A DNA stretch of 64,000 bases from Herbiconiux sp. GTDB taxonomy: Bacteria; Actinomycetota; Actinomycetes; Actinomycetales; Microbacteriaceae. This document shows, in pieces, positions 51,645 through 61,797 of the stretch. The DNA lies in NCBI RefSeq assembly GCF_023264855.1, contig NZ_JAHFUW010000003.1:62001-126000 (forward strand), read 5' to 3'. The notes beneath the pieces were generated by a model. That model did no database searches. It saw nothing but the letters and a program-made list of their open reading frames with translations, and was not told where the DNA came from. The translations under genes were made by a program, and so were the position numbers. Positions within the stretch are counted from its first letter, which is position 1. The number at the start of each line of letters is the position of its first letter.

Positions 51645-52550
51645 TCATCCCTTGGTCGCGCCGCTGGCGAGGCTGTAGGTCATGGCTTTGTTCAGCAGCA
51701 GGAACACCAGCAGCAGTGGGGTGATGCTGACGCACACGGCCGCGAAGGTGGCCGTCCAGTCGACCTTGCCCATGGCGCCGATGTAGTTCTGCAGGCCGAG
51801 CGGGATCGTCTTCAGGTCGTCGGTCAGCACGAAGGTGTTGGCGAAGATGAAGTCGTTCCAGATGAAGATGCTGTTCACCATCGCCACGGTCACCATCGTG
51901 TTCACCGAGAGCGGCAGGGTGATCTGCGCGAAGATGCGGTAGGGGCCGGCGCCGTCCAGCGATGCCGCCTCGTAGATCTCGCCCGGGATGTACTCGTAGA
52001 ACGACGAGAACAGGTAGATCGAGGTGGGCAGCGCGAACCCGGCGAGCGGGATGATGATCGACTGGTAGGTGTCGAGCAGGTTCACCGCCGCGTAGTCGAC
52101 GAACAGCGGCACGAGCGCCACCTGAACGGGCACGATGATGCCGACCAGGAACAGCGCGCGCACGAACCGGCTGAAGCGGAAGCCGAGCACCTGCAGGGCG
52201 TAGGCGCCCATCATCCCGAGGAAGACGATCACCACGATCGAGCCCAGCGTCACGATCAGCGAGTTCAGGATGTTGAGACCGAGGTTTCCGGTGGCGAAGG
52301 CGCGCGCGTAGTTGTCGAACGTGATCTCGGTGGGCAGGGCGAACGGGTTCCCGCCCGCGAAGTCCTGCTCGGTGCGCACGCTGGTGATGAACAGCCAGGC
52401 CAGCGGATAGACCTGCACGATCACGATCAGGGCCACGATCACGCCGGTGATCTTGCGCTGCAGGTGCAGCTGCCGACGCCGGGGCCGAGGCAGGCCCGGC
52501 TCCTCGAACTGCGGGCGGGTGGCCCGTGGGGGAGCGGTGAGGGCGGTCAT
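51645..52550 (-). CDS. CUT1 sugar ABC permease, MalG type
   Basis: 301-residue permease with six helices. The EAA loop EIYEAASLDGAGPYRIFAQI is the CUT1 signature, and the end LLLNKAMTYSLASGATKG is typical of MalG-like partners. The N-terminal 30 residues are Pro/Arg-rich and cytoplasmic. ATG 52550 overlaps the MalF-type gene. No ATPase gene is present in this operon, as is common where a shared MsiK-type ATPase serves many CUT1 importers. Confidence 0.92.
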   Translation of the reverse strand: MTALTAPPRATRPQFEEPGLPRPRRRQLHLQRKITGVIVALIVIVQVYPLAWLFITSVRTEQDFAGGNPFALPTEITFDNYARAFATGNLGLNILNSLIVTLGSIVVIVFLGMMGAYALQVLGFRFSRFVRALFLVGIIVPVQVALVPLFVDYAAVNLLDTYQSIIIPLAGFALPTSIYLFSSFYEYIPGEIYEAASLDGAGPYRIFAQITLPLSVNTMVTVAMVNSIFIWNDFIFANTFVLTDDLKTIPLGLQNYIGAMGKVDWTATFAAVCVSITPLLLVFLLLNKAMTYSLASGATKG

Positions 52551-53428
52551 GCGTCGGCCTTCCGTCGGAGCAGCACGAAGATCAGGCCCACGGCCACGAG
52601 GCACTCCACCACCACGAACACCGAGATGGCGCTCGCGTAGCCGTAGTTCGTGCTGGTGAACGCGGTCTTGTACATGTAGGTGGTGAGCAGCTCCGACGAC
52701 TGGCCGGGGCCGCCGTTGGTGAGCAGGTAGGGGATGTCGAAGCCGCGCAGCGCATTGGTGGTGGCGATGATGGTCGTGGTGATCCAGACCGGGCGGATGT
52801 AGGGGAAGCGGATGCGCCAGAAGGTCTGCCACCACGAGGCGCCGTCGAGCTTCGCCGCCTCCTCCAGCTCGGCCGGCACCGCGAGCAGGGCCGCGTAGAT
52901 GATCAGCATGTAGAGGCCCGTGAACCGCCAGCCCTCGGGAATGGAGACGGCGGCCAGCACGGTGTTCACATCCGAGAGCCAGGCGTGCTGCAGGCCGCCG
53001 AGCCCGACGAACTCGAGCACCTGGTTGATCAGGCCCTCGGGATCCAGCGAGTAGATGCGCTGGAACAGGAAGGCGATGGCGACCGTGGAGATGACCGCCG
53101 GCAGGATGTACAGCGTCTTGACCAGCTCGCGGCCCCGCCGGAGCAGGGTCAGCAGGCTCGCCACGATCAGCGCCCCTCCGAGCTGGAGCACCAGGCAGAT
53201 CGCCACGTAGCCGAGGGTGTTGCGGAACGCCGTCCAGAACACGGCGTCGCCGGTGAACATGTGCACGTAGTTCTCGACGCCCACGAAGAGCATCGGGCTG
53301 ATGCCGTCCCACTCGAAGAAGCTGAGGAACAGCGACTGGAAGATGGGCAGCAGCACGGCGATGCCGTACAGGGCCAGCGGCGGCACGAGGAAGACCAGCA
53401 CGGAGAGGCGTGATCGTTGGGGGAGCAT
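52547..53428 (-). CDS. CUT1 sugar ABC permease, MalF type
   Basis: 293-residue permease with six helices; N-terminus LSVLVFLVPPLALYGIAVLL and EAA loop LEEAAKLDGASWWQTFWRIR. It partners the MalG-type protein. Two stable hairpins lie in the 84 bp between its start and the receptor gene upstream. Start overlap is none; GGAAAGAGACC precedes ATG 53428. Confidence 0.92.
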   Translation of the reverse strand: MLPQRSRLSVLVFLVPPLALYGIAVLLPIFQSLFLSFFEWDGISPMLFVGVENYVHMFTGDAVFWTAFRNTLGYVAICLVLQLGGALIVASLLTLLRRGRELVKTLYILPAVISTVAIAFLFQRIYSLDPEGLINQVLEFVGLGGLQHAWLSDVNTVLAAVSIPEGWRFTGLYMLIIYAALLAVPAELEEAAKLDGASWWQTFWRIRFPYIRPVWITTTIIATTNALRGFDIPYLLTNGGPGQSSELLTTYMYKTAFTSTNYGYASAISVFVVVECLVAVGLIFVLLRRKADA

Positions 53429-53442
53429 GAGGTCTCTTTCCC

Positions 53443-53483
53443 GTGGGGCCCGAAGGCCCCACGTCAGGAGGGCCCGGAGGCCC
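53443..53483 (-). other. Two intercistronic hairpins between receptor and permease genes
   Basis: On the mRNA (minus) strand, GTGGGGCC-TTCG-GGCCCCAC (53443-53462) is a perfect 8-bp stem closed by a C(UUCG)G tetraloop, and GGGCC-TCCG-GGCCC (53470-53483) is a 5-bp relative; both sit in tandem GACGTGGGGCC units. Such hairpins behind a receptor gene can protect its mRNA 3' end or attenuate downstream permease expression. Confidence 0.65.
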
Positions 53484-53512
53484 CACGTCGGGAGGGACGT
53501 GCGGAACGCCGG

Positions 53513-54862
53513 TTACTGGAAGGCCTTGGGCCCGTTGTCGGCGATCACACCGTCCATCGTGGAGATGAACTCGTCGGGGGCGACCTCGCCCTGCAGCAGC
53601 AGGGTCAGCTCCTGCTGCAGCCGGGTGTTCGAGGTGGGGTCGAGCTGGGTGTCCCAGGGCATCGCCGTCTTCTCGCCCACGTCGTTCGCCTGGTCGACGG
53701 CCCGCTGGTAGAGCGGGGTCGCGTTGGCCGGGATGGTGGTCTCGGCGGTCGTGGTGGGCGACAGGGCGCCGGTCGCGGCGTAGACCTCCGGGTAGCGCTT
53801 GAGGGCGAAGCCCAGGAAGTCGCGCACCAGCGGGTCGTAGGTCTTGCTGTTGACCGCCATGCCGATTCCCGAGGGGGAGACGTACTCGTTCGCGGCCGTG
53901 ACGGAGTCGGCGGTCACGGGGAGCGTGAAGTAGTCGATGTCGTCGCGCACCGCGGGATCGAGGGCGTCGGTGGCGAGGCTGTTCAGCTCCCAGGTGCCGA
54001 TGTTGTAGACCGCGGCCTTGCCCGAGGTGAACGAGGCCTGCGCATCCGAGTAGCCGGTCGACGAGAAGCCGTCCTGGAAGCATCCGGCCGATCCCAGGTC
54101 GCTCAGCCACTGCACGGCCTGCTCGCCCGTTGAGTCGCTGAGCGTGGCGTCGCCCTTCTTCAGCTGCTGCACGTAGTCGGGGCCGGCCGTGCGGAACGGG
54201 TAGTACGCCATGTAGCGCTCGAGCGGCCACTGGTCTTGGCCGTCGAGGGCGATCGGGGTGATCCCGGCATCGCGGAGGGCGGTGCACATGGCGGGGAAGT
54301 CGTCGAGCGTCTTCGGCACCTGCACACCCGCCTGCTCGAACAGCGCCTTGTTGTACCAGAAGAACTCCAGCTGGAACTCGAACGGCACCATGTAGAGCGA
54401 CCCGTCGTCGAAGCGCTGGTAGTTCAGCGCCGCCGGGCGGTAGTCGTCGTAGACGCCGAGGTCTTTCAGCAGCGCCTCGGCATCCATCATCGTGCCGTTG
54501 GCGGCGAGCTTCTGGGCGAACGGGGTGGCATCCGTGTCGAACAGCTCGGGCAGCTTGTTCGCGGCGGCGAGCGTCTCGTACTTCTGGATGTAGGAGGGGC
54601 GGTCGGGCGTGGTGATCAGGTTGAGCGCGAAGCCGGGGTGGTCTTTCGCGTACTCGTCGGCGATCTGCTCCATCGCCGTGATGACGCCGCCGTCGGCCGG
54701 CCGCGAGAGCAGCCAGGAGATCTCGTGCGGCGTGATCTCGCCCTCGGGATCGACGTTCGTGGGGTCGGCGCTGGTGCCGGAGCCGGCGGCGCAGCCGGTG
54801 AGCAGAAGGCCGAAGGCGGCCACGGTGGCCGCTACTGCGAGCCGTGCACGGTTGGTTCTCAT
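53513..54862 (-). CDS. CUT1 sugar ABC substrate-binding lipoprotein
   Basis: 449-residue extracellular receptor; signal peptide with lipobox LLLTGC. The mature chain has family-1 features: ITAMEQIADEYAKDHPGFAL, PELFDTDATPFAQKL, WYNKALFEQAGVQVPKTLDD and FTSGKAAVYNIGTWEL. ATG 54862 is preferred because GGAG lies 9 bp upstream; ATG 54871 is too close to it. Between GH32 (upstream) and the permeases it probably binds a fructo-oligosaccharide or sucrose. Confidence 0.93.
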   Translation of the reverse strand: MRTNRARLAVAATVAAFGLLLTGCAAGSGTSADPTNVDPEGEITPHEISWLLSRPADGGVITAMEQIADEYAKDHPGFALNLITTPDRPSYIQKYETLAAANKLPELFDTDATPFAQKLAANGTMMDAEALLKDLGVYDDYRPAALNYQRFDDGSLYMVPFEFQLEFFWYNKALFEQAGVQVPKTLDDFPAMCTALRDAGITPIALDGQDQWPLERYMAYYPFRTAGPDYVQQLKKGDATLSDSTGEQAVQWLSDLGSAGCFQDGFSSTGYSDAQASFTSGKAAVYNIGTWELNSLATDALDPAVRDDIDYFTLPVTADSVTAANEYVSPSGIGMAVNSKTYDPLVRDFLGFALKRYPEVYAATGALSPTTTAETTIPANATPLYQRAVDQANDVGEKTAMPWDTQLDPTSNTRLQQELTLLLQGEVAPDEFISTMDGVIADNGPKAFQ

Positions 54863-54908
54863 GGTTTCCATCTCCGTTGATCGAATGTGTCGGGATTGGT
54901 GGTGCGGT

Positions 54909-54934
54909 GGGGTGGGTGGTGCGGGGTGGTGGGG
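54909..54934 (+). other. G-quadruplex motif between GH32 and receptor genes
   Basis: Four G-runs with short loops (G4-T-G3-TGGTGC-G4-TGGT-G4) directly abut the GH32 stop codon, on the strand opposite to the mRNA. The whole 72-bp intercistronic stretch is G-rich. It fits the standard quadruplex pattern; a role is unproven. Confidence 0.5.
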
Positions 54935-56422
54935 TCAGGCGTACTGGTTCTGCGGATGCCGCGTCTCGACGGGGCCGGTGGACGCGACGTGCACGGCCAC
55001 CCGCAGGTCGCGGACGGTCACGGCGCCCTCGCCGGCGAAGACGCCGAGGCGGCCGCGCGGGTGGTCGTAGAGGCGCGTGCTCAGGGTCGTGCGGCCGTCC
55101 AGGTTCACGACGCAGAGGTCGCCGTCGACGATCACCTCGAGGAGATGCGCGCCGGGCGCGAGGTCGCACGAGCGCTCGAGCTCCACGAAGAACGGCACGT
55201 CGCCGGAGATCTCCCACTGGCCGGCCCCGGTGCGGCGGCGCGGCCAGCGGTCGAACACCATTCGGCCGCGCTTGGGCTCGAGGCGCACCACGTACGAGGT
55301 GTCGCCGTCGGCGCTGGAGCGCAGCAGCAGGCCGCATTCGGTGGTGCCGGCGTCGATGTCGAGCGTCACGGAGGCGTGGAAGGCATCCGGCAGCTCCTGC
55401 TCCGAGACCAAGGCGCGGTAGCCGTCTCCGGCGTCGATCACGACGGCCGCATCCGCTGCTGGGGTGCCCGCGAGGGTGAGAGGAACGGATTCGGTGAAGC
55501 TCGCGCGGGTCTCCGGGGTGAAGCCGAACGACAGCGTGCCGTCGGCGTTCTGCCGCGCCTCGAGCACCGACAGGGTGCCGGCCCACTGCCAGGCGCCGTC
55601 GTCACGCGAACCCTCCCGGCTGGCGATCCAGCCGAAGAAGAAGCGGCGGCCGTCGCGCTCGGCGGTCTTCGAGGCGTAGTAGGCCCGGCCGTCGATGCTG
55701 TCGTGCTCGGGAGCGATCCACGGGCCCTCGAGCGAGCGTGCCATCCGGTAGCGGGTGGTGAACGCGTCGGAGAACTCCGAGTAGACCAGGTACCACCACT
55801 CGCCCCACTGGAACACGTCGGGGCACTCGTGGGCCACGTAGCGGCGTGGGTCCCAGAACGGCTCGGCGATCCGCCAGGTCACCAGGTCGTCGGACACGCA
55901 CTGGGCGATCACGCCTCGGCGGCGTTCCGGGCCGTCGGTGTGGCGGGCGGCGATCAGCATCCGCCACAGTCCCGCCTCCTCGTCGCGGAAGACGAAGGGA
56001 TCGCGCCAGTCACCCGACTCGTAGCCGTGCGGGGCGCCGAAGGTATGCTGCGGATGCCGCGTCCAGGTGCGCATCCCATCGGTGCTCGTGGCATGCATCA
56101 CGAGCTGCAGGGGGAGGCCGTCCGCGCCGAGACGGCGGGGGTTCTGTCCGGTGGAGAACAGGTGGTGCGTCTCGCCGTCGCGCACGATGCTGCCGGTGTA
56201 CACGTTGAAGTCGGGATCGCTGTCGGAGCCGTGCTCGAAGGCGAGCCCCCTGTCCTCGAACGTCACCAGGTCGCGGGTGGAGACCGCGTGCCACGGCGTA
56301 CCCGGCTTAGGGTCGGCGCGCTCCTCGTGCAGGTAGAAGAGGGTGAACTCGCCGTCCTGTTCGAAGGGGATGATGTCTCCGACCCACGCCTCGCGCGGGC
56401 GGAAGAAGATCTGCTGGGGCAT
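54935..56422 (-). CDS. GH32-like beta-fructosidase without the WMNDPNG motif
   Basis: 495 residues, no signal peptide. The five-bladed propeller starts immediately: VGDIIPFEQDGEFTLFYLHE, where Asp16 is the probable nucleophile in place of WMNDPNG. The stabiliser WRDP (139-142) and acid/base HECPD (Glu199) are intact. A C-terminal sandwich follows from about 330. It is the first gene after the operon promoter. The altered nucleophile region suggests a substrate different from that of the second GH32 enzyme in the same operon. Confidence 0.8.
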   Translation of the reverse strand: MPQQIFFRPREAWVGDIIPFEQDGEFTLFYLHEERADPKPGTPWHAVSTRDLVTFEDRGLAFEHGSDSDPDFNVYTGSIVRDGETHHLFSTGQNPRRLGADGLPLQLVMHATSTDGMRTWTRHPQHTFGAPHGYESGDWRDPFVFRDEEAGLWRMLIAARHTDGPERRRGVIAQCVSDDLVTWRIAEPFWDPRRYVAHECPDVFQWGEWWYLVYSEFSDAFTTRYRMARSLEGPWIAPEHDSIDGRAYYASKTAERDGRRFFFGWIASREGSRDDGAWQWAGTLSVLEARQNADGTLSFGFTPETRASFTESVPLTLAGTPAADAAVVIDAGDGYRALVSEQELPDAFHASVTLDIDAGTTECGLLLRSSADGDTSYVVRLEPKRGRMVFDRWPRRRTGAGQWEISGDVPFFVELERSCDLAPGAHLLEVIVDGDLCVVNLDGRTTLSTRLYDHPRGRLGVFAGEGAVTVRDLRVAVHVASTGPVETRHPQNQYA

Positions 56423-56645: not shown

Positions 56646-58163
56646 TCACAGACCCTGCGCGAGGCGGTAGTACGCCTGGTTCCAGCGCACCTCGTTCGCG
56701 AAGCCCTTGCGGGTCGTGTCGGCGTCGATGGTGAGCAGCTCGGTCTTCGCGATGGCGGCGAAATCCTCGAACACCTCGATGCCGACGGCGGTCGACATCA
56801 CGGTGTGGTGGGCGGCTCCGGCGGTGAGCCAGGCGGCGGCCGAGACGGCGAACGAAGGCTCTGGGCGCCAGACGGCGCGGCCCACCGGCAGGTTCGGCAG
56901 GGGAGCGCGCGGCTCGACGACCTCCACGACGTTCGCCACGAGGCGGAAGCGGTCGCGCATGTCCGACAGGGCCACCACCACGGCGGGACCCGGGTCGGCC
57001 GTGAACACCAGGCGCACCGGGTCGTCCTTGCCGCCGATGCCGAGCGGGTGGATCTCCAGCGTCGGCCGGGCCGTGGTGAGCGAGGGGCTCACCTCGAGCA
57101 TGTGCGCGCCCAGGATGGTCTCGGCACCCTCGACGAGGTCGTAGGTGTAGTCCTCCATGAGCGACGCCCCGCCGGGCAGGCCCGCACCCATGACGTTCGC
57201 GGCGCGCACCAGGATGGCGGTCTTCCAGTCGCCCTCGGCGCCGAAGCCGTAGCCCTCGGCCATCAGGCGCTGCACGGCGAGCCCGGGCAGCTGCTTCAGC
57301 GCGCCCAGGTCTTCGAAGCTCGTGGTGAACGCTCCGAAGCCTCCTTCTTCCAGGAAGGAGCGGAGCCCGAGCTCGATCGCGGCGCCGTCGCGAAGGGACT
57401 GGTTCCGCTCACCGCCGCTCCGGAGCTCGGGCACCACATCGTAGAGATCTTCGTACTCGGCCACCAGCGCGTCGACATCCGCCGACGACGCCGCGGCCAC
57501 GGCATCCGCCAGCTCGTTCACGCCCCAGGTGTTCACCTGCACGCCGAAGCGCAGCTCGGCCTCGGTCTTGTCGCCCTCGGTCACCGCCACGTAGCGCATG
57601 TTGTCGCCGAAGCGGGCCAGCTTGAGGGTCTTCACGGCCTGCCAGCCGGCGGATGCGCGGGCCCAGTCGGCGATCTGCTTCTGCACCAGCGGGTTGCTCG
57701 CGTGGCCGACCGCGGTCTTGCGGGCCACGCCCAGCCGGGTCTGGATGTAGCCGAACTCGCGGTCGCCGTGGGCGGCCTGGTTGAGGTTCATGAAGTCGAA
57801 GTCGATGTCGGCGTAGGGCAGCTCGACGTTCGCCTGGGTGTGCAGGTGCAGCAGCGGCTTGGCGAGGGCGTCGAGGCCGGCGATCCACATCTTCGCGGGG
57901 CTGAAGGTGTGCATCCAGGCCATCACGCCGATCACGCGGTCGTCGGCGTTCGCGTCGAGGGCGGCGCGACGGATCGACTCGCTGTCCTTCAGCACGGGCT
58001 TCCAGACGATCTTCACGGGGATCGCGGATGCGTCATCCAGCGTCGCCACGATCTGCTGCGACTGCTCGGCGACCTGGCGGAGGGTCTCTTCGCCGTAGAG
58101 GTTCTGGCTGCCGGTGAAGAACCAGATCTCGTACGGGGAGAGGTCGGTGCTGAGGCGGGTCAT
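56646..58163 (-). CDS. araA: L-arabinose isomerase
   Basis: 505-residue enzyme converting L-arabinose to L-ribulose. Family landmarks: [20 protein letters not shown] at the N-terminus, [28 protein letters not shown], and [16 protein letters not shown] followed by [10 protein letters not shown], which carry the Mn-site glutamates and histidines. Length is normal. The start overlaps the kinase-epimerase fusion gene (ATGA), so isomerase, kinase and epimerase are made from one transcript. Confidence 0.96.
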
Positions 58164-60643
58164 GCGAGGGATCCTGTCGGGTCTTGTCCGTAGACGTTCT
58201 GATAGCGGGTGAAGAGGGAGTCGACGGCGTCGGCGGCGATCGGCGGTGGGGTCTCGCCGCCGCCGAGCTGACGGGAGAACAGCACCGAGCGGGCCACGTC
58301 CTCCACCATCACGGCGGCTTTCACGGCATCGCGGGCGTCCTTGCCGATGGTGAACGGGCCGTGGCTCTTCATCAGCACGGCCCGCGACCGGTGGCCGCGG
58401 AGGGTCTCGACGATGCCCCGGCCGATCGAGTCGTCACCGATGATCGCGAACGGCCCGATCGGCACCTCGCCGCCGAACTCGTCGGCCATCGCCGTGGTGA
58501 CGCAGGGGATCGGCTCGCCCCGGGCGGCCCAGGCGACGGCATAGGGGGAGTGGGTGTGCACCACCCCGCCGACCTCGGGCATCTCCCGGTACACGTAGGC
58601 GTGGGCGGCGGTGTCACTCGAAGGGGAGCGGTCCGAGCCCTCGGTGCCGGGGATGACGCGGCCGTCGAGGTCGCAGAGGATCATGTTCTGCGGCGCCAGC
58701 GCGTCGTAGTCGACGCCGCTCGGCTTGATGACGAAGAGGTCGGCGCCCGGCACACGGCCCGAGATGTTGCCGCCGGTCCACTGCACGAGGTTGTACCGGG
58801 TGAGCTGGGCGTGCAGGTCGCTGACCTCCTGGCGCACCCGGTCGATGGTGGCCTGCAACTCGGGGCCGGGAGCGAAGGCTCCGGATGCCACGGCCGGGCC
58901 GGTCTCGGTCGAGGTGCCGCCGGGCGCGGTGCCGGTGGGCGCGGTGGGCGCGCTCGAGGACGACGGGCCGGCGGGTGAGGTGCTCGGGGAGCCGGCGGGC
59001 GCGGTGGTGGAGGTGGCGGGCAGCGGAAGCGCCTCGACCGCGGCGGCCTCGACGGCCAGTCCGGCTCGGTAGCGCTCGAGGTAGGCGGCGAAGCCGGCCA
59101 CATCGGCGGGTTCGGGATCGACGCTTCGCAGGTCGGCGCCGGCGAACACTTCGCTCGCCAGGAACGCGTCGAGGGCGACTCCGGATGCGGCGGGTCGCAG
59201 GTAGGCGGCCAGCACGGCGACGCCCCAGGCACCGCCCTCCGAGGCGGTCTCGGTCACGGTCACGGGAGCGTCGAGCGCGCCGGCCAGGAACCGCTGGGCG
59301 ACGCCGGCGGTGCGGAACAGCCCGCCGTGCGCGAACATCCGGTCGATCGCCACGCCCTCCTCGGTGAGCACGCGCAGGCCGAGTGCCAGGGTGCCGAAGA
59401 CGCCGTAGAGCTGGGCGCGCGCGAAGTCGGCGAGCGTGAGGGCGCTGCCGGGGCTCCGCACGACCAGCGGGCGCCCCTCGGCGAGGCCGGCGATGGGCTC
59501 GCCGGCCAGATGGTTGTAGGCGAGCACGCCCCCCGCATCCGGAGCGCCGAGCAGTGCCTCGCGGAACAGCACGTCGAACACCGCGTCGCCCTCGACCGGC
59601 GCGCCGGCCGCCGCCGAGAACCGCTCGAACAGGCCGGCCCAGGCGGCGAGTTCACTCGCGCCGTTGTTGCAGTGAACCATGGACACCGGGTCGCCGGCGG
59701 GTGTGGTCACCAGGTCGAGTTCGTGGTGCACCTCACGCAGCGGATGCTCGAGCACCACCATCGCGAAGATGCTCGTACCCGCGCTCACGTTGCCGGTGCG
59801 CGGAGCCACGGCTCCGGTGGCGACCATGCCGGTTCCCGCGTCGCCCTCGGGCGGGCAGAGCGGTGCGCCCGGCTGCAGTGCGCCGCTCGGGTCGAGCAGG
59901 GCCGCGCCCTCGGCGGTGAGCTCGCCCGCCGGCTGTCCGGCCACGAGAACCTCGGGCAGCAGCGCGCGCAGGTCGTGAGGCAGCTCGGGAGCGGTCTCGG
60001 CGAGCAGCCCGTCGTATCGGGCGAGTATCTCGGCGTCGTAGTCGTTCGTGCGGGCGTCGATCGGGAACATCCCCGAGGCATCGCCGACCCCGAGCACGCG
60101 CCGGCCGGTGAGGCGCTCGTGCACGTGCCCGGCCAGGGTCGTGAGGTGCCGGATGTGCGGCACGTGCGCCTCGTGATCGAGCACGGCCTGGTGCAGATGG
60201 GCTACCGACCAGCGCAGTGGGATGTTCACCCCGAACAGCTCGGAGAGTGCGGCCGCCGCGGGGCCGGTGCTGGTGTTGCGCCAGGTGCGGAACGGCGTGA
60301 GCAGCTCGCCGGCCGCGTCGAACGCCAGGTAGCCGTGCATCATCGCCGAGACGCCGATGGCTCCGTAACCGGCCGGATGCACGCCGTAGCGCGTCGCGAC
60401 GTCGGCGGCGAGGTCGGCGTAGGCGGCCTGGAGGCCCGCCCAGACGGCGTCGAGGGGGTAGGTCCAGACGCCCTCGTGGAACTCGTTCTCCCAGCTGTGG
60501 CTGCCGACCGCGAGCACGGCGTGGTCGTCGCCGATCAGGCAGGCCTTGATGCGCGTGGAGCCCAGCTCGATGCCGAGGACGGCGCGACCGGAGGCAATCG
60601 TCTCGCGGGCGGCCTCGTGCTCGGGGGCGGCGGGCTGGCTCAT
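58160..60643 (-). CDS. araB-araD: Fused ribulokinase-like FGGY kinase and L-ribulose-5-phosphate 4-epimerase
   Basis: 827-residue single frame covering both later steps of L-arabinose catabolism. Residues 22-535 are an FGGY kinase ([17 protein letters not shown] at 24-40; [25 protein letters not shown]). Residues about 541-588 are a Ser/Thr/Pro/Ala/Gly linker. Residues about 595-827 are a class II epimerase: [14 protein letters not shown], Asp677 (PSSDTAAH), zinc ligands His696/His698 (VVHTHSP) and His761 (KSHGPF), and C-terminal Tyr818 (NVYGQ). The Asp-to-His spacing of 19 equals E. coli AraD (76/95). ATG 60643 is preceded by GAAGGAG. No stop or start separates the domains. Confidence 0.9.
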
Positions 60644-60667
60644 GCTCGTGGACTCCTTCGGCTTGGC

Positions 60668-60733
60668 ATGTGATCGCTCATGTGATCGCTCACATTGGAG
60701 TCGAGCATACACGCCCGGGGGGCGATGTGTCAG
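60668..60733 (-). promoter_or_regulatory. Arabinose operon promoter with tandem LacI-type operators
   Basis: On the minus strand CTGACA (60728-60733) and TATGCT (60704-60709) are 18 bp apart, the -35 overlapping the lacI stop codon. Just downstream, a 12-bp unit CATGTGATCGCT is repeated (60667-60678, 60679-60690). The second unit completes a 16-bp operator, ATGTGA-TCGC-TCACAT (60680-60695), of LacI type. Confidence 0.75.
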
Positions 60734-61797
60734 TGCGGGGGCGGTGCGGAGGAGCCGCGCAGCACGAGGGCGGGCTCCACCGAGGGCGGGGCCTCGGCCT
60801 GCCCGAGCAGACGGGCGAGGGCCCGGCGCCCGGCCTCGGCGAAGTTCTGCCGCACCGTCGTCAGCCCCGGCCGGTAGTGGCGTGCCTCAGGGGTGTCGTC
60901 GAAGCCGACCACGCTGAGGTCGTCCGGCACCGCGAGGCCGCACTCGGCGGCCGCGTGCAGCAGTCCGAGAGCCATCTGGTCGTTCGCCGAGAACACGGCG
61001 GTGACCCCGGGTCGCAGCAGGGCGCGGGCGGCCTCGTAGCCCGAGTCGGCGCTCCAGTCGCCCGCCTCGACGGCGGCGGCCCGCAGCCCGCGGGAGGCGA
61101 GTTCTGCGCGGAATCCGGAGTCCCGCGATTCGGCGTCGATCCAGTCGGCCGGCCCCGCGAGGTGGGCGATCGCAGTGTGGCCGAGATCGGCCAGATGGGC
61201 GGTGGCGAGGCGTGCGCCGTGATGCTGGTCGAGGGCGACGGTGGAACCGTCGAGGGTGCTGAGCGTCTGCAGGGTCACGAAGGGCACGCCGATCGGCAGT
61301 CGTTCCAGCGTCGCCAGAACCGGTGTCTGCGGTGCGACGACCACGAGGCCCTCCACCGAGAGCGCGAGCAGGTGCTCGAGTGCTTCGTTCACCGAGGCCG
61401 GATCGAATCCGTCGGCCGTGGCGATGCTCACGCTGTAGCCGCGCGCCCTGGCCGCCGCTTCGACGGCCGCGATGCTCGACGCCGGCCCGTATTCGCCGTG
61501 CGCGGTCGAGAGGATGCCGATGATGCGCGAGCGGCTGGTCACCAGTGCCCGGGCGGCCAGGTTGGGCCGGTAGCCGAGCTCGCGCATGGCGTCGAGCACC
61601 TTCTGCCGGGTGGCGGGGCGCAGGCTCGGATGGTCGTTGAGCACGCGCGACACGGTCTGATGCGACACACCGGCGGCCTTCGCCACGTCGAACACGCTCG
61701 GCCCGCGCGGTTTGGTGCCGGACGCGCCGGACGTCGCGCCGGTCGCATCCGGCGTCGTGCCCACCGGATCCGGGGGAGGGGTTTCGGTGCGGCTCAT
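60730..61797 (-). CDS. LacI-family regulator of the arabinose genes
   Basis: 355-residue repressor: a 30-residue Pro/Thr/Gly-rich N-terminal tail, then the headpiece SVFDVAKAAGVSHQTVSRVL, hinge PNLAARALVTSRS, and a sugar-binding core ending VVGFDDTPEARHYRPGLTTV. CTGGAGC precedes ATG 61797. It lies directly upstream of the kinase-epimerase gene, whose promoter carries LacI-type operators. It is the functional counterpart of AraR, probably released by L-arabinose or an intermediate. Confidence 0.9.
   Translation of the reverse strand: MSRTETPPPDPVGTTPDATGATSGASGTKPRGPSVFDVAKAAGVSHQTVSRVLNDHPSLRPATRQKVLDAMRELGYRPNLAARALVTSRSRIIGILSTAHGEYGPASSIAAVEAAARARGYSVSIATADGFDPASVNEALEHLLALSVEGLVVVAPQTPVLATLERLPIGVPFVTLQTLSTLDGSTVALDQHHGARLATAHLADLGHTAIAHLAGPADWIDAESRDSGFRAELASRGLRAAAVEAGDWSADSGYEAARALLRPGVTAVFSANDQMALGLLHAAAECGLAVPDDLSVVGFDDTPEARHYRPGLTTVRQNFAEAGRRALARLLGQAEAPPSVEPALVLRGSSAPPPH

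Follow-up and report, generated by a model that had tools for sequence, protein, structure and literature searches.

A probable natural fusion of a putative ribulokinase gene and araD in an arabinose operon of Herbiconiux

Introduction

Bifunctional fusions of consecutive sugar-catabolic enzymes exist, for example that of a class II aldolase with a short-chain dehydrogenase. In the available portions of two accounts of arabinose use in Bifidobacterium and C. glutamicum (PMC5928203, PMC5956887), araB, araD and araA are treated as separate genes, and the predicted Bifidobacterium regulator AraQ is of the LacI type. The accessible part of a paper on Herbiconiux (PMC10011130) mentions arabinose, and neither a fusion nor a ribulokinase appears in that part. 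No report of an AraB-AraD fusion (FGGY kinase plus class II epimerase) was found in the open-access literature by title and abstract start; to that extent only, this agrees with the first-pass annotation of the DNA studied here, according to which such an enzyme is not known to have been described.

Here we describe a locus in a 64,000-nucleotide stretch of a Herbiconiux sp. genome (the whole stretch is hereafter called the window). Judging by its sequence, the gene araBD is very probably a genuine natural araB-araD fusion in the Herbiconiux arabinose operon, with a predicted bifunctional AraBD translated from one ribosome-binding site. As far as the available portions of those accounts go, the araBDA operons of C. 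glutamicum ATCC 31831 and Bifidobacterium hold the same three enzymes in the same named order under a regulator, but araB and araD are separate there and one gene in the window. In the aldolase/dehydrogenase fusion, too, a single chain covers two steps of a pathway and contains a class II aldolase-fold domain, although with another partner and in another pathway. araBD is a real, rare and recurrent fusion, and the enzymes that it joins most likely act one after the other in a known pathway. Knowledge of the arabinose pathway itself is unchanged by it, and its interest lies in offering a natural, testable case of two consecutive catabolic enzymes turned into a single chain.

Results

A single frame encodes a kinase and an epimerase

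The features of the locus, listed in the direction of transcription, are as follows.

60730..61797, minus strand: LacI-family regulator upstream of araBD (domain matches; conserved neighbour)
60681..60694, minus strand: LacI-type operator-like palindrome TGTGAGCGATCACA (upstream scan)
60653..60659, minus strand: Shine-Dalgarno site GAAGGAG before the ATG, the sole such site found for both domains (sequence)
58160..60643, minus strand: araBD, fused FGGY pentulose kinase (putative L-ribulokinase) and L-ribulose-5-phosphate 4-epimerase, 827 aa (domain matches; single-frame homologues L103 in genome G010 and L180 in genome G140)
59024..60643, minus strand: kinase domain, residues 1-540 (Pfam FGGY_N 22-249, FGGY_C 285-481; AlphaFold2 model)
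58862..59023, minus strand: interdomain linker, residues 541-594, in frame and without a Shine-Dalgarno motif
58163..58861, minus strand: epimerase domain, residues 595-827 (Pfam Aldolase_II 605-786; NCBIfam PRK06557 595-820)
56649..58163, minus strand: araA, L-arabinose isomerase (Pfam/NCBIfam match, 781.6 bits, cut-off 622)

The frame runs from an ATG at 60643-60641 to a stop at 58162-58160 through 827 codons with no internal stop, so that the coordinates and length given by the first-pass annotation were correct, with the minus strand to be added. Its description of an FGGY kinase joined to a complete class II epimerase also holds, as FGGY_N (43.6 bits, cut-off 28.8), FGGY_C (108.1 bits, cut-off 27), Aldolase_II and PRK06557 all exceed their cut-offs, and the linker, put at roughly 50 Ser/Thr/Pro/Ala/Gly residues, measures 54, 93% of them S, T, P, A or G (A 11, P 11, S 10, T 10, G 8). 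Third-position GC is 0.93 in the linker, compared with 0.82-0.98 in windows along the araBD frame. A chance GC-rich open reading frame is ruled out as the source of the frame, given the strong homology of each half and a linker that continues the reading phase of the two.

Two further fusions and their unfused relatives

The search for other single chains in which an FGGY kinase precedes Aldolase_II, suggested along with the initial reading, was run on sets of genomes and yielded two. One is in another Herbiconiux species (G010), with a linker of 14 residues and a protein 80% identical to that of the window; the other is in another Microbacteriaceae genus (G140; L143/L180), with a linker of 21 residues including SASASASASA and 67% identity, and came to light when 398 genomes across the family Microbacteriaceae, 261 of them with a match, were searched with the G010 protein.

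Among the 16 sampled Herbiconiux genomes, araB and araD were readable at this place in 15 (in G011 split over two contigs); for G009, which is 88% complete, only the contig of the best Aldolase_II match was examined, and such a kinase is absent from that contig. The first-pass annotation had held that separate genes at the same place in close relatives, with no homologous fusion among them, would speak against its reading. Separate genes are indeed found in 13 of the 15 readable loci, but the remaining two, the window and G010, carry the single frame. In all 13 readable unfused junctions (12 scanned and that of G011 read by eye at the contig end), araB ends in its own stop codon and araD begins at a start codon with a Shine-Dalgarno site ahead of it. 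At the three fused junctions, the scanned stretch holds no stop, no Shine-Dalgarno-preceded start and no ATG in the araD frame, and a lone in-frame GTG occurs at each (residue 585 in the window), with no Shine-Dalgarno motif ahead of it; a GGAGG in G140 lies 85 nt before the epimerase, too distant from the GTG of that genome. Nine genomes of the genus of G140 were searched and eight gave a match, seven of which, all except G140, show separate kinase and epimerase matches.

The epimerase half

Residues 595-820 match the L-ribulose-5-phosphate 4-epimerase model PRK06557 of NCBIfam with 347.4 bits (cut-off 251), and the classical AraD model TIGR00760 scores 153 bits on this half, below its cut-off of 389.1. 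H696, H698, H761 and D721, which we take to be the zinc and catalysis positions of AraD, align with E. coli AraD (1jdi) and are invariant in the three fusions; in the D721 column 1k0w differs from 1jdi. Y818 is also invariant in the three fusions, the position of the E. coli Tyr being outside the 1jdi/1k0w alignment shown. The proposal that both active sites look intact thus stands for the epimerase, with its four residues matched to E. coli AraD, and for the kinase only as far as FGGY family membership goes. Relative to E. coli AraD (1jdi/1k0w; PRK06557), the araBD epimerase is full-length, with the zinc and catalytic columns conserved, but it forms the C-terminal part of a longer chain, lacks a start codon of its own and falls below TIGR00760. 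Elsewhere in the genome of the window, a second AraD-like class II protein (L115, G000:C78:47586-48152) passes Pfam Aldolase_II and is 58% identical over 200 residues to the fused epimerase.

The kinase half and its operon

The kinase reaches no curated ribulokinase cut-off: PRK04123 gives 31.9 bits against 428, and TIGR01234 has no listed match. Its best NCBIfam match is xylulokinase (XylB; 88 bits, cut-off 380), and a profile search of the PDB places the xylulokinases 5vm1 and 2itm first. An AlphaFold2 model of the domain (mean pLDDT 86.5) has FGGY kinases as its nearest folds, xylulokinases first and a ribulokinase, 3qdk, for the first time at rank 11. Like other FGGY carbohydrate kinases (xylulokinase, ribulokinase), the araBD kinase has both Pfam FGGY domains and the corresponding nearest folds, but it is divergent, lies below the curated cut-offs for ribulokinase and xylulokinase and carries a fused epimerase. 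Since it passes none of the curated ribulokinase models, we infer from context, namely the adjacent araD and araA, that it is an L-ribulokinase. The AraB-AraD identity first proposed therefore holds for the epimerase through PRK06557 and for the kinase by context, no curated AraB cut-off being reached. The genome of the window has 12 FGGY_C matches, and none of the nine scanned besides araBD (two partial ones were omitted) reaches a ribulokinase cut-off. One FGGY kinase of this genome (G000:C27:3499-4967; L229, L008) is nearest to rhamnulokinase models, below their cut-offs, and a class II aldolase match in a different frame follows it after about 140 nt, the two being an unfused neighbour pair.

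The start of araA overlaps the stop of araBD by 4 nt (ATGA), and the LacI and araA neighbours are kept in all 12 other loci tested (11 Herbiconiux and G140). A LacI-type operator-like site was present upstream of araB in each of the 14 Herbiconiux loci scanned; the operator pattern was searched for upstream in G140 and was not found there. Directly after the operator of the window, 60669-60680 holds a second copy of most of the operator sequence (TGAGCGATCACA), forming a 12-nt tandem repeat.

The fusion is rare

At least 3 of the 398 Microbacteriaceae genomes carry the fusion, a lower bound because the match of the G010 query split at the window's own 54-residue linker and because the figure covers the matches listed. 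The order and phylum samples, searched with an alignment of the three fusions and overlapping each other and the family sample, comprised 396 genomes each, with 252 giving a match at 1e-60 in the order and 11 at 1e-150 in the phylum; a match without stops over both domains was found in the window only, for the order among the matches listed. The order search also revealed at least 23 genomes that have both genes in one frame with one to three stops between them (one stop in at least 10), so that fusion needs little.

Among 80 relatives picked for similarity, two Herbiconiux genomes included, none has a frame holding both domains. There, araB precedes araD in 30, follows it in 36 and points in the opposite direction in 2, and the examined stretch contains no araD in 12. 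The small operon is thus reshuffled within the group, the order of araB and araD flipping across loci L009-L088 (36 araD-first, 30 araB-first). Ten large-frame kinase matches of the family search, examined for fusions hidden by long linkers, included no fused gene. A fusion in the order araD-araB, which would not show as one match in the family search, occurs neither in the loci of the 80 relatives nor in the family loci inspected.

A mobile origin was considered and discarded: 11 stretches of viral contigs matched a pattern and none encodes a relative. Nine plasmid and five phage-labelled records cover at least 80% of the query, all of them distant; the four inspected (two of each kind) have two separate frames, with the kinase 52-57% and the epimerase 38-40% identical. 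These plasmid- and phage-labelled records are probably bacterial DNA.

Origin of the fusion and selection on its domains

The end of the window linker resembles the araD leader of the unfused genome G002 (ASGAPFAPSPEL), and the G010 linker closes with AAPVFDPEPEL, similar to the araD leader AAPFDPSPEL of G006. A likely course of events is that, where a spacer separated the genes, araB lost its stop and araD its start codon and Shine-Dalgarno site, the leader of araD being kept as the linker end and, in the window, the former spacer forming the linker beginning.

Trees of the individual genes differ in how they place the two Herbiconiux fusions. The window and G010 are joined in the epimerase tree (UFBoot 97) and weakly in the kinase tree (57), whereas in the araA tree the partner of the window is G002 and not G010 (67), and in the tree of the rpoB 5' end the window and G010 are not joined, with low support. 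In a set of 3981 columns from mechanically chosen marker ORFs, with G009 left out, the support for the window with G010 is 29. The G140 fusion is most simply a separate event because its genus mates are unfused, and the fusion probably arose in at least two lineages.

Both araBD domains are under purifying selection, since a comparison of the window with G010 (NG86) gives the kinase a dN/dS of 0.275 and the epimerase one of 0.148; the value for araA is 0.116. Constraint on the kinase may be weaker, because its dN/dS exceeds that of araA in this pair and is 0.21-0.40 in pairs with a fused member versus 0.129 in the single unfused pair computed, which is a closer pair.

Discussion

Predicted function of AraBD

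In the proposed pathway, AraA would convert L-arabinose to L-ribulose, the N-terminal kinase would phosphorylate L-ribulose with ATP, and the C-terminal zinc-dependent epimerase would turn L-ribulose-5-phosphate into D-xylulose-5-phosphate. AraD enzymes are tetramers and FGGY kinases are usually dimers; the linker is probably a flexible tether, which would let each domain hold its own oligomeric state. The full-length AlphaFold model, with a mean pLDDT of 36 from a 3-row alignment, is uninformative about how the domains are arranged and was set aside. The benefit of the fusion, if there is one, most likely lies in a fixed 1:1 amount and the proximity of both enzymes, the fixed synthesis following from the single frame provided that no free AraD is made. 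Direct passage of ribulose-5-phosphate within the predicted AraBD is possible. With close relatives that are unfused at the same locus, the fused enzyme can be compared cleanly with its split counterparts in terms of flux, intermediate build-up and enzyme ratio, and the natural linkers are available for engineering arabinose use.

Alternative explanations

The initial reading named, as its main alternative, a sequencing or assembly indel that merged two overlapping genes into one apparent frame. In many relatives araB and araD do overlap or lie close together, a pair that one indel could join, and araD is in another frame in 10 of the 30 araB-araD loci, but after a single indel the start codon and its Shine-Dalgarno site should still be present in the DNA, and neither is found; the 54 linker codons, moreover, are in phase and have the third-position GC given above. 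We reject this merger, to which we give scarcely any credence, because two other genomes are fused with linkers of other lengths and because the start and Shine-Dalgarno site of all 13 unfused junctions are missing. Unlikely, though far less so than an indel, is that the gene is truly fused and free AraD is nevertheless made, either by initiation at the internal GTG of residue 585 or by protease cleavage within the linker, with separate enzymes persisting as a result. That GTG stands in frame 30 nt before the epimerase homology, G010 and G140 have one each, and S/T/P/A/G-rich linkers such as these can be protease-sensitive; yet none of the three GTGs is preceded by a Shine-Dalgarno motif. Slightly less probable still is that the kinase half acts on another pentulose, in which case the fusion would not join strictly consecutive steps. 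The unreached ribulokinase cut-offs and the xylulokinases nearest in profile and fold favour it. In the tested loci, however, the kinase has araD, araA and a LacI regulator as neighbours; it shares the examined stretch with araD in 68 of the 80 relatives, and none of the nine other kinases scanned reaches a ribulokinase cut-off. In addition, C. glutamicum ATCC 31831, whose sequence was outside this comparison, has an araBDA cluster and grows on arabinose according to the available part of PMC5956887.

If araBD is accepted as a genuine fusion, it may still be neutral, a stop loss fixed by drift with no gain from tethering; we give this a little short of an even chance, and it is compatible with the preferred explanation of araBD as a natural fusion. 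The fusion occurs seldom and in scattered places (2 of the 15 Herbiconiux genomes that could be read, 1 of 8 matched genomes in the genus of G140), its linkers of 14, 21 and 54 residues have little in common, and it arises easily, as the one-frame gene pairs of the order indicate. Against neutrality stand the probable origin in two or more lineages, each of which lost the internal start together with its Shine-Dalgarno site, and the purifying selection on both domains. A more doubtful possibility is that the fusion evolved at least twice in Microbacteriaceae as tethering pays: a tetrameric epimerase core would carry four kinases on flexible linkers, keeping L-ribulose-5-phosphate, which is toxic on build-up, local and the enzyme ratio fixed.

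Surrounding genes

Beyond araA, 53513-56422 on the same strand encodes a GH32-family hydrolase (Pfam) and, by eye, an apparent sugar-binding lipoprotein, which suggests a neighbouring sugar uptake cluster. A minus-strand frame of 1313 codons spans 51645-55586; by eye, its last ~290 codons resemble an ABC-transporter permease and the rest looks like a mechanical GC-rich extension through neighbouring genes in another frame.
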